A DNA stretch of 36,813 nt from Mycobacteriales bacterium. Its GTDB lineage: Bacteria > Actinomycetota > Actinomycetes > Mycobacteriales > QHCD01. Position numbers and translations under genes: made by a program. Below are positions 26,398 through 29,074 of the stretch, piece by piece. The notes under the pieces are model-generated. The model worked only from the letters and a program-made list of their open reading frames with translations, was not told the DNA's origin and made no database searches. The stretch's first letter is position 1. Each line of letters starts with the position of its first letter. The stretch is from NCBI GenBank assembly GCA_036497565.1, contig DASXJE010000166.1:1-36813 (forward strand), given 5' to 3'.

Positions 26398-27558
26398 TCA
26401 TCGAAGCGGGCGGAAGAAGGACCGGAGTTCGTCGACGAACACCGCGGGCTGCTCGAACGCGGCGAAGTGGCCGCCCTTGTCGAGCTCGTGCCACTGCCGG
26501 ATGTCGGTGTAGCGCCGTGCCGCCCAGCGGCGTGAGGGGCGGGGGTTCTCCTTCGGGAAGATGGAACACCCCGTGGGAACGGTGACGATGTCGTCGGTCG
26601 ACCGGGTGAACCATTCGGAGACCTGCCGGAAGCTCTCCCAATACATGCGCGCCGACGACGCGCCGGTCGCGGTGAACCAGTACAGCGCGACGTCGTCGAG
26701 GACCTCGTCGCGGGTGAGTACGTCGTCGAGGTGACCGTCGTTGTCGGTCCAGCCCCAGAACTTCTCGACGATCCACGCGCACAGAGCGGCGGGGGAGTCG
26801 ACGAGCCCGTATCCGACGGTCTGGGGCTTGGTCGTGTGCTCCTCCGCGTAACCGGATCCCCATTCCTGAGCCTGTTCCAGCGCCGCCAGCGCGGACCGCT
26901 CCGTCTCGGTCAGGTCGTCGAACGTGGCCGGGTCGGGGGCCGCGATCGGCGGGTTGAGGTGGATCCCGACGACGTGGTCGGTGTCCTGCTGACCGATGCT
27001 TGTGGTGATGCTCGTGCCCCAATCGCCGCCCTGCGCGCCGTATCGCTGGTAACCGAGCCGGGCCATCAGCTGCATCCACGCACCGGCGGTGCGCTGCACA
27101 TTCCATCCCGGCCGGGCGGGTTTGTCGCTGAAGCCATATCCCGGCAGCGACGGGCACACGACGTGGAACGCATCGCCGGCCGCGCCGCCATGAGCCGTGG
27201 GATCGGTCAACGGTCCGATCACCTTGAGGAACTCGACGACCGAGCCCGGCCAGCCGTGGGTGACGACGAGGGGCAGGGCATCGGGGTGAGGTGATCGGAC
27301 GTGCAGGAAGTGGATCCCGAGACCGTCGATCTCCGTGCGGAACTGGGGAAATGCGTTCAGACGTGCCTCGGTCGCCCGCCAGTCATGGCCCTCGGCCCAG
27401 TAGCGACAGAGCTCTCGCAGGTAGCCGAGCGGCACACCCTGAGACCAGTCGTCGACCGTCTCCGCGTCCGGCCACCGGGTCCGCCCGAGCCGTTCGCGTA
27501 GATCAGCCAGGTCGGCGTCGGACACCTCGACGCGGAACGGCGTCAGGTCATCACGCAT
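26398..27558 (-). CDS. Epoxide hydrolase (EHN plus alpha/beta hydrolase)
   Basis: A 386-residue enzyme that opens epoxides to diols. The N-terminal EHN-type segment (FRVEVSDADLADLRERL, TRWP, PLGYLRELCRYW) is followed by the alpha/beta hydrolase core. Its oxyanion loop is HGWPGS (about 101-106), the nucleophile is Asp179 (QGGDWGTS), ring-opening Tyr candidates lie mid-protein, and the catalytic His is in DKGGHFAAFEQP. I prefer ATG 27558: GGAGGAG is about 9 bases upstream of it but directly abuts the other ATG at 27567. It overlaps the helix-turn-helix gene by 8 bases. Confidence 0.92.
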   Translation of the reverse strand: MRDDLTPFRVEVSDADLADLRERLGRTRWPDAETVDDWSQGVPLGYLRELCRYWAEGHDWRATEARLNAFPQFRTEIDGLGIHFLHVRSPHPDALPLVVTHGWPGSVVEFLKVIGPLTDPTAHGGAAGDAFHVVCPSLPGYGFSDKPARPGWNVQRTAGAWMQLMARLGYQRYGAQGGDWGTSITTSIGQQDTDHVVGIHLNPPIAAPDPATFDDLTETERSALAALEQAQEWGSGYAEEHTTKPQTVGYGLVDSPAALCAWIVEKFWGWTDNDGHLDDVLTRDEVLDDVALYWFTATGASSARMYWESFRQVSEWFTRSTDDIVTVPTGCSIFPKENPRPSRRWAARRYTDIRQWHELDKGGHFAAFEQPAVFVDELRSFFRPLR

Positions 27559-27982
27559 CTTGTGCATCTCCTCCGTTCCCGGCCAGCATTCGTGCCTCGG
27601 CCGCCTCGTCCGGCGTCAGGCCTTCGTAGCCGGATCGCTCGTGGTCGGTGGCCTGCTGCTCGATCCACCGGTTGTGGGCCTCCCACGCCGCCTGCTTGGT
27701 CGTCCCGAGCGCGGCTCCGACCTGGGTCCAGGAGGCGCCCGCCCTTCGCGCCGTGCGGACCGCCAGCGCCCGCCCGTATCCCGCCTTGCGGATCACGATC
27801 TCGCCGAGGGTGAGCATCTCCAACGCCTCCTCCTGCGACAACGGATCGTCGCCGTCAGTACCAGCACCGCTCACGCCGTCGTCAGCCGCCCCGGCGAGGG
27901 CATCGCGGAGTCGCAGCCGGTCATACCGGCTCGCCGCACTGAGCAGCGAATGGTCGTGCTCCATCCGGTCCAGCCCGGTCAT
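27551..27982 (-). CDS. Small helix-turn-helix protein coupled to the epoxide hydrolase
   Basis: A 143-residue protein. The conserved core is LTLGEIVIRKAGYGRALAVRTARRAGASW, written here in part as residues 58-85. It leads into a helix-turn-helix at about 83-102 (SWTQVGAALGTTKQAAWEAH) that resembles actinobacterial regulators with a sigma-region-4-like or transposase-like HTH. The gene has a good Shine-Dalgarno (GGAGGTGG) and its own -10-like TACCCT with a large dyad (27994-28025). Its stop overlaps the epoxide hydrolase start, so it is likely a co-expressed regulator. Confidence 0.75.
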   Translation of the reverse strand: MTGLDRMEHDHSLLSAASRYDRLRLRDALAGAADDGVSGAGTDGDDPLSQEEALEMLTLGEIVIRKAGYGRALAVRTARRAGASWTQVGAALGTTKQAAWEAHNRWIEQQATDHERSGYEGLTPDEAAEARMLAGNGGDAQDA

Positions 27983-28245
27983 GGCCCACCTCCGTCAAGG
28001 TCGCCTGACGTCAGGGTAGCTTGACGCGCGGGCCGGGCGCTACCGCGGCCACGTCTGCGCGGATTCCGCCCCTCTCCCTGGAACTCTTGGCGCCGCTCGA
28101 ACTCGGCCAGTCGACGCGACACCTCCACGTGCAACCTGGCCGAGATCCGGATCAACTCCACCAGGTCATGGCGCAATACTGCCCGCGGCAGATTCGACAA
28201 CTGCTCACCGGCGAGCCCATCGAGCGCCAGATCCAACGCATCCAT
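27979..28245 (-). pseudogene. Truncated DUF222 (13E12-type) N-terminal remnant under an SOS promoter
   Basis: An 88-codon frame from ATG 28245, with GGAGG 5 bases upstream, starting MDALDLALDGLAGEQLSN and continuing LPRAVLRHDLVELIRIS and VSRRLAEFERRQEF. This resembles the N-terminal helices of DUF222/13E12-repeat HNH proteins, which are normally 350-500 residues. After about residue 58 the similarity stops and the frame runs on as low-complexity Arg/Gly sequence. That tail covers the promoter and dyad of the next gene, then ends in an ATGA overlap with it. The HNH nuclease part is gone. It could still be translated as a short peptide; a decayed gene is the simplest reading. Confidence 0.55.
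27994..28025. promoter_or_regulatory. 32-bp dyad operator with -10 hexamer before the HTH/epoxide hydrolase pair
   Basis: Thirteen of 16 positions are symmetric about a central TGACGTCA: the inner 12 bp CCTGACGTCAGG (28004-28015) and the outer arms GTCAAG/CTTGAC are perfect. On the minus strand TACCCT (28013-28018) overlaps it, and the Shine-Dalgarno of the HTH gene follows. The location fits autoregulation by the HTH protein. Confidence 0.6.
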
Positions 28246-28260
28246 CCCGGCCTCCATCCA

Positions 28261-28282
28261 TCGAACGTGTGTTCGAATTCTA
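28261..28282 (-). promoter_or_regulatory. LexA-binding SOS box and -10 hexamer
   Basis: TCGAAC-N4-GTTCGA (28261-28276) is a perfect match to the Gram-positive/actinobacterial LexA operator CGAAC-N4-GTTCG. TAGAAT (28277-28282, read on the minus strand) directly precedes it, so the operator covers the expected transcription start. The DUF222 remnant starts 15 bases downstream. No strong -35 is visible. Confidence 0.8.
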
Positions 28283-28385
28283 GCCACTCGCGACTGACGA
28301 AAGACAGTTGGCAGGAGCAGTTGTGGACAACCGTCGAACACCGGCTCGATCGAACGAGCGGCTCGCTGTCCTGACGGCGACGTGC

Positions 28386-28940
28386 CTACCCGGCTTCGGA
28401 ATCCCGCATCCGCTGCCGGTAGCTCGCCGCCTTGGCGCGGTCGCCGCACCCCTTCATGCCACACCAGCGACGGCGCCCCCCGCGCGACCGGTCGAGGAAC
28501 ACCCGGGTGCAATGAGGGTCCGCGCATCGACGAAGTGAATCGGCGTCGGCGCTGTCGTAGAGGTCCAGCCCGTCCTGTGCGAGCGCGGCCAGTACCGACG
28601 CGATGTCGCCACGGCGGGCCACGGTGCCGGCGCCGGTCAGATTCAACGTCGGCGCCACACCGGATGCCGCGGCATTGACCAGGTCGCGGTCGGCCCGGGA
28701 CGGCCGGCGATCATCGATCGCGGCGGTAATCAGCCCGAACAGCGCCTCCCGAACGGCGCGAGCGTGGGCGAGTTGGTCGGCCGTCACCTTCACCGGGCCG
28801 TCGACGATGCCTGCCTCGCGTGCCCACACAGCCAGATCACGCGGCCGACGCAACTTCTCCTCGCCGGCGGTACCCCGCTCCGCGACCGTCGCGACGAAAT
28901 CGAGGACCGGCCGGTCGGCGATGAAGTCGAAGTCGCTCAC
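28386..28940 (-). CDS. CGNR zinc-finger (ABATE domain) regulator
   Basis: A 184-residue putative transcription regulator. The N-terminal ABATE domain spans about 1-130 (RPVLDFVATVAERG). The C-terminal CGNR finger has Cys139, Cys144, Cys160 and Cys165 (RRCADPHCTRVFLDRS, WCGMKGCGDRAK), with the signature reading CGDR rather than CGNR. The GTG at 28940 is chosen from homology (SDFDFIADRPVLDF) and an AAGGTGG Shine-Dalgarno. It is divergent from the MFS exporter gene, the usual arrangement for a local regulator. Confidence 0.87.
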   Translation of the reverse strand: MSDFDFIADRPVLDFVATVAERGTAGEEKLRRPRDLAVWAREAGIVDGPVKVTADQLAHARAVREALFGLITAAIDDRRPSRADRDLVNAAASGVAPTLNLTGAGTVARRGDIASVLAALAQDGLDLYDSADADSLRRCADPHCTRVFLDRSRGGRRRWCGMKGCGDRAKAASYRQRMRDSEAG

Positions 28941-29074
28941 GTCACCACCTTGACCGGTGAGCGCCTCGTGTGCAAGGCCGCGGCCTACACCAACGCCGAG
29001 TAGCCGCTCTGTTCCAACAGCTCGGCGACACCCATCAGCGGAGCTTTCCACACGACGCAGCTCCGGGTCGGGGC

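Follow-up and report, generated by a model that had tools for sequence, protein, structure and literature searches.

A truncated DUF222 gene whose SOS promoter probably drives a downstream HTH-epoxide hydrolase operon

The window analyzed here, a stretch of 36,813 nt (contig C166) from the draft genome of a Mycobacteriales bacterium, carries a truncated DUF222 gene on its minus strand, and the SOS promoter of this gene has probably come to drive a downstream operon composed of P0002, which encodes an HTH-type protein, and an epoxide hydrolase gene. Judging from the sequence, we give this reading a probability of about 0.55. A more ambitious version is tentative: a broken DUF222 gene may have given its LexA promoter to the HTH-epoxide hydrolase operon, whose leaderless promoter then fell into decay, with a ribosome-binding site taking its place, and an order-wide module of DnaA-box-like elements and LexA boxes may tie DUF222 genes to replication initiation and damage control. 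SOS-regulated DUF222 genes are already known as a kind; what appears to be new is the probable capture of the promoter and the pairing of a DnaA-box-like element with a LexA box. If true, this would be a readable step in the way a regulon acquires members: an SOS gene of a mobile or repetitive kind is broken, its promoter persists, and DNA damage comes to control a metabolic operon.

The promoter is centered on a perfect LexA (SOS) box, TCGAAC-ACAC-GTTCGA (TCGAACACACGTTCGA), located at 28261-28276 on the minus strand (pattern search, 0 mismatches), and this is the sole perfect box of the whole window. A -10 hexamer, TAGAAT (28277-28282, minus strand), abuts the box on its upstream side; at L004, L005, L006, and L011, which are further DUF222 SOS promoters of this genome, TAGAAT overlaps the first base of the box. 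A Shine-Dalgarno (SD) sequence, GGAGG (28251-28255, minus strand), lies 5 nt ahead of an ATG at 28245, which is M5 of a short open frame with an earlier in-frame ATG at 28257. The order along the minus strand is hence TTGTCCACA (28330-28322), then TAGAAT (28282-28277), TCGAACACACGTTCGA (28276-28261), and TGGATGGAGGCCGGGATGGAT, and all the elements described in the earlier note, i.e.: a perfect box after TAGAAT followed by GGAGG and an ATG, were confirmed on this strand. TCGAAC-N4-GTTCGA is the published consensus of the LexA box (PMC4181829), and its position at a promoter is that of a LexA-regulon operator. A PafBC (RecA-NDp) promoter was also considered and rejected: the motif is TGTCGG/TGTCAG/TGTCAC-N10-TANNNT (PMC8151990), and the CGTCAG-N11-TAGAAT found here has the wrong first base and the wrong spacing.

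The whole 4.8-Mb genome (316 contigs) contains 12 perfect LexA boxes and none of a reversed control pattern, so the box at 28261-28276 is not a product of chance; the chance expectation is ~0.1 perfect boxes per genome (arithmetic from base composition, ~72% GC). Most of the boxes stand ahead of DUF222/HNH genes: DUF222 starts follow those at L002, L004, L005, L006, L010, L011, and L012, and other perfect boxes precede lexA, imuA'-like, and HEPN-like genes (identified by reading, except for lexA, recognized by TIGR00498, and the PF02720 matches). Together, these genes are a recognizable actinobacterial SOS set. The genome encodes its cognate LexA (TIGR00498, E 2.6e-75), and the lexA gene has a perfect box of its own upstream.

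The short open frame behind this promoter, P0001 (27979-28257, minus strand), gives 92 aa if translated from the earlier ATG and 88 aa if translated from the one that is properly spaced to the SD, and its TGA overlaps the ATG of the next gene (ATGA). The earlier note had proposed that its product resembles the N-terminal helices of DUF222 proteins, with a failed PF02720 search as the refuting result. That search was run: P0001 matched neither PF02720 (Pfam) nor any NCBIfam model. Yet PF02720 is uninformative for this region, because genuine DUF222 N-termini (five DUF222-type proteins cut to their first 58-70 residues) are missed too (0/5), which makes the search invalid as a refutation for this part of the family. 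In the full-length protein encoded on contig C215, PF02720 starts only at residue 49. An independent N-terminal profile, built from the cut N-termini of DUF222 proteins selected by PF02720 alone, scored P0001 at 19.4 bits in an ungapped, colinear alignment of residues 3-58. None of 5000 shuffles reached this score (best shuffle: 12.5 bits), and the proposed resemblance thus holds.

A tblastn search of P0001 against its own genome gave a best match of 37% over 63 aa, located at the N-terminal end of a DUF222-HNH gene on C215 that is itself SOS-boxed. In other genomes it matched DUF222 starts, several of them with a LexA box ~24-31 bp upstream of the match, and the box stands at the corresponding place in the matched genes L017, L037, and L042. 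Only matches colinear with the DUF222 start were used, and those in Arg-rich, coiled, or antisense frames were discarded. The N-terminal homology to DUF222 is significant but remote. Residues 5-60 (28078-28245, minus strand), delimited by the profile and by coding-type base periodicity, correspond to the surviving N-terminal helices, the region that precedes and enters the PF02720 core. P0001 is therefore best described as a fragment of DUF222 origin, not as a DUF222-domain protein. Searches of the genus, the family, plasmids, and a collection of genome contigs returned no ortholog, with no match in the one other genome of the family that was searched, and neither a full-length DUF222 gene nor an ancestral state was seen at this locus in any relative compared.

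The DUF222 similarity ends at about residue 60. GC1/2/3 is 73/37/82 for codons 1-60, which is coding-like, versus 81/78/59 for codons 61-92, which show no DUF222 similarity and no coding periodicity. A six-frame PF02720 search of the genome returned 15 DUF222 matches, none of them in contig C166. No remnant of a DUF222 body was found at the locus in any frame, the only matches in the window being repetitive, compositionally biased ones elsewhere, and no remnant of the HNH part was found either at the locus, where the frame closes after 92 aa, or in the rest of the window. Because similarity and codon-position bias both end at codon 60, and no body is present in the contig, the gene is truncated and its last 32 codons look accidental. 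Truncation of a DUF222 gene at this locus is well supported, in line with the proposal of the earlier note that the nuclease half had been lost. The breakpoint is between about 28078 and 28026, just ahead of the control region of a conserved pair of genes unrelated to it. Elsewhere in the genome, contigs C7, C12, C29, C121, C125, C146, C171, C201, C210, C230, and C299 have DUF222 genes or the corresponding SOS boxes close to their ends, which is where near-identical repeats would be expected.

The DNA upstream of the box speaks for the same origin. A DnaA-box-like element, TTGTCCACA, is found at 28322-28330 (minus strand), 45 bp upstream of the LexA box; in M. tuberculosis and S. coelicolor, the DnaA box has this sequence (PMC4285127). 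The element is common to the SOS-boxed DUF222 genes of the genome (L002, L004, L005, L006, L010, L011, and L012): all eight DUF222-type SOS boxes, that of the window included, have TGTGGACA, TGTCCACA, or (L010) TGTGGAT starting 39-53 bp upstream. It is absent within 160 bp of the lexA, imuA', and HEPN boxes of the genome, and as background it turns up 3 times in unrelated actinobacterial loci totaling 265 kb. Across the order (L158-L174), a perfect LexA box accompanied by TGTSSACA at a distance of 25-55 bp is present in 35 of 399 genomes, and never with the reversed control. Among 30 fetched loci, those with TGTGGACA/TGTCCACA precede a DUF222 gene in at least 14/25 cases (leaving out L156 and L175, whose DUF222 calls are weak and apparently out of frame), and those with palindromic variants in 0/5. 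Defining a DUF222-type SOS promoter as TGTCCACA/TGTGGACA 25-55 bp upstream of a LexA box, the window promoter is one of them. Independently of the protein, the pairing supports a DUF222 origin of this promoter. We found no report linking such an element with a LexA box at these promoters in the open literature, outside which most subscription journals lie. For a large gene family whose biological role is unclear, the pairing offers a hint that is specific and open to testing. In another genome, a DnaA-box-like/LexA-box pair (L152, G009:C226) precedes an apparent replicative helicase (DnaB) gene.

P0002 (27551-27982, minus strand), the presumed second gene of the operon, encodes a 143-aa HTH-type protein with a weak HTH_23 match. 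It is conserved in Actinobacteria: at E <= 1e-6 it has matches in 102 further genomes of the order sample, and 29 named records match as well. The epoxide hydrolase gene (EHN plus alpha/beta hydrolase; 26398-27567, minus strand) overlaps its end, and the two genes are also paired in Streptosporangium (L081; L078 by position). Upstream of P0002 orthologs (L046-L101) there is a strongly conserved repeat with a 16-bp period, GTCA(A/G)G-N4-CTTGACGTCA(A/G)G-N4-(C/T)(C/T)TGACG, followed by a -10-like hexamer and, a few bases on, by the ATG. We infer from this arrangement a leaderless-type promoter with an operator, which, lying over the promoter of a widespread actinobacterial HTH gene, is likely autoregulatory. 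The window retains a 16-bp-period operator, GTCAAG-N4-CCTGACGTCAGG-N4-CTTGACG (27993-28026, minus strand), that overlaps codons 78-89 of P0001 and is unique in its genome at zero mismatches.

The promoter under this operator has changed. Where orthologs have TTGACG the window reads CTGACG, and GGAGGTGG stands instead of the -10, whose place is occupied by an SD-like GGAGGT (27988-27993, minus strand). Among 44 anchored orthologs, the -10 is present in 40/44 (composition alone would give 9%), a TTGAC -35 in 43/44, and an SD-like sequence in 2/44. P0002 has thus lost its own conserved -35 and -10 in the window and gained an SD. No intrinsic terminator was recognized between 27500 and 28500, nor any consensus sigma-70 promoter. 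TACCCT (about 28015-28020, minus strand) is a possible alternative -10 for P0002. The scanned upstream regions of P0002 orthologs contain no LexA box. Loss of the -10 is by itself no proof of capture, because ortholog L073 also lacks it and has CTGACG plus an SD-like sequence, with neither a LexA box nor a gene of the same direction a short way upstream.

Most simply, these features can be read to mean that P0002 and the hydrolase are now expressed from the SOS transcript. The DUF222 (13E12-type) SOS gene would have lost its core and HNH nuclease part, leaving a 5' end made of a LexA-regulated promoter, leader, SD, and ~60 codons. LexA would repress this promoter and DNA damage would release the repression; with no terminator behind the 60 codons, transcription would continue past the open frame and on into the genes for P0002 and the hydrolase. 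The leaderless-type promoter of the pair would meanwhile have decayed, and an SD now precedes P0002. Since the pair's own promoter is decayed and an SD stands ahead of P0002, the SOS promoter most likely became a, or the, promoter of the operon. LexA binding, read-through, and retention of the promoter for that reason are all presumed. The suggestion that the promoter was kept for the short peptide or for downstream genes therefore survives in its second half, on circumstantial grounds (degraded -35/-10, an SD instead, and no terminator); nothing supports the first.

The locus may instead hold a recent, decaying DUF222 pseudogene, in which promoter and 60 codons linger for lack of time and both peptide and read-through are irrelevant. 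Codons 1-60 indeed still show fresh coding periodicity, and the DUF222 genes of this genome, many of them at contig ends, form a repetitive and fragmented set. We hold this to be unlikely, if worth serious thought: with a best own-genome match of only 37%, the fragment did not arise by recent copying of any gene now in the genome, and the LexA promoter is intact to the letter, whereas the promoter belonging to the downstream gene has degraded. The lack of a near-identical paralog also leaves no repeat to cause a misjoin, and makes it highly improbable that assembly artificially joined a DUF222 5' end to the upstream region of P0002, despite the draft state of the genome and the several DUF222 genes ending contigs.

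Capture of the promoter by the operon has also to be weighed against readings that give the open frame another meaning. A functional short DUF222-N peptide (88 aa, a helical fragment) could be made on damage, for example as a partner of full-length DUF222 proteins, and the open frame, good SD, and coding periodicity over codons 5-60 fit this. Codons 61-92, however, lack a coding-like composition and run into the next gene's operator, and no convincing short relative was found in 399 genomes of the order or among plasmids, which leaves the idea with little credit. It is similarly hard to sustain that the frame is a short ORF unrelated to DUF222, with the box of an ordinary SOS gene driving P0002 and the hydrolase. 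The silence of PF02720 would agree with it, but extends to true DUF222 N-termini of equal length; the profile score of P0001, and an TTGTCCACA element common only to DUF222 SOS promoters in this genome, have strongly weakened this reading, which we consider very unlikely.

The window gene resembles the mycobacterial 13E12 DUF222/HNH genes of the LexA regulon (PMC4181829; PMC8151990) in having TCGAAC-N4-GTTCGA at the -10 just ahead of the start codon, DUF222 N-terminal helices, and a family that is multi-copy in the genome. The earlier note mentions several such genes as reported to be SOS-inducible, and the literature bears this out: the M. tuberculosis LexA regulon includes ten 13E12-family HNH genes (PMC4181829), and five putative HNH endonucleases are induced RecA-dependently (PMC8151990). 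Unlike them, the window gene consists of ~60 codons with no DUF222 core and no HNH. Its start codon comes after the LexA box, whereas it lies inside the box in MFD/MFE-type copies of the same genome. The DUF222-HNH gene at C215:3835-5052 (L010/L015) shares with it a perfect LexA box and an alignable N-terminal region, and carries TGTGGAT at -42, but encodes a full-length protein of about 400 aa that has both DUF222 and HNH. As for the P0002-epoxide hydrolase pair, gene order and the 16-bp-period operator are as in other Actinobacteria (e.g. Streptosporangium L081); there, in contrast to the window, the pair has its own TTGACG-N17-(A)ACT-type promoter, with no LexA box or DUF222 fragment upstream.

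Two further features lie near the SOS promoter. A one-mismatch LexA-like site, TCGAACACCGGCTCGA (28334-28349), lies 57 bp from the perfect box without an adjoining -10, and could be due to chance or be a weak second operator. Directly upstream of the promoter, and co-directional with it, is a gene for an ABATE/CGNR zinc-finger regulator (28386-28991, minus strand).
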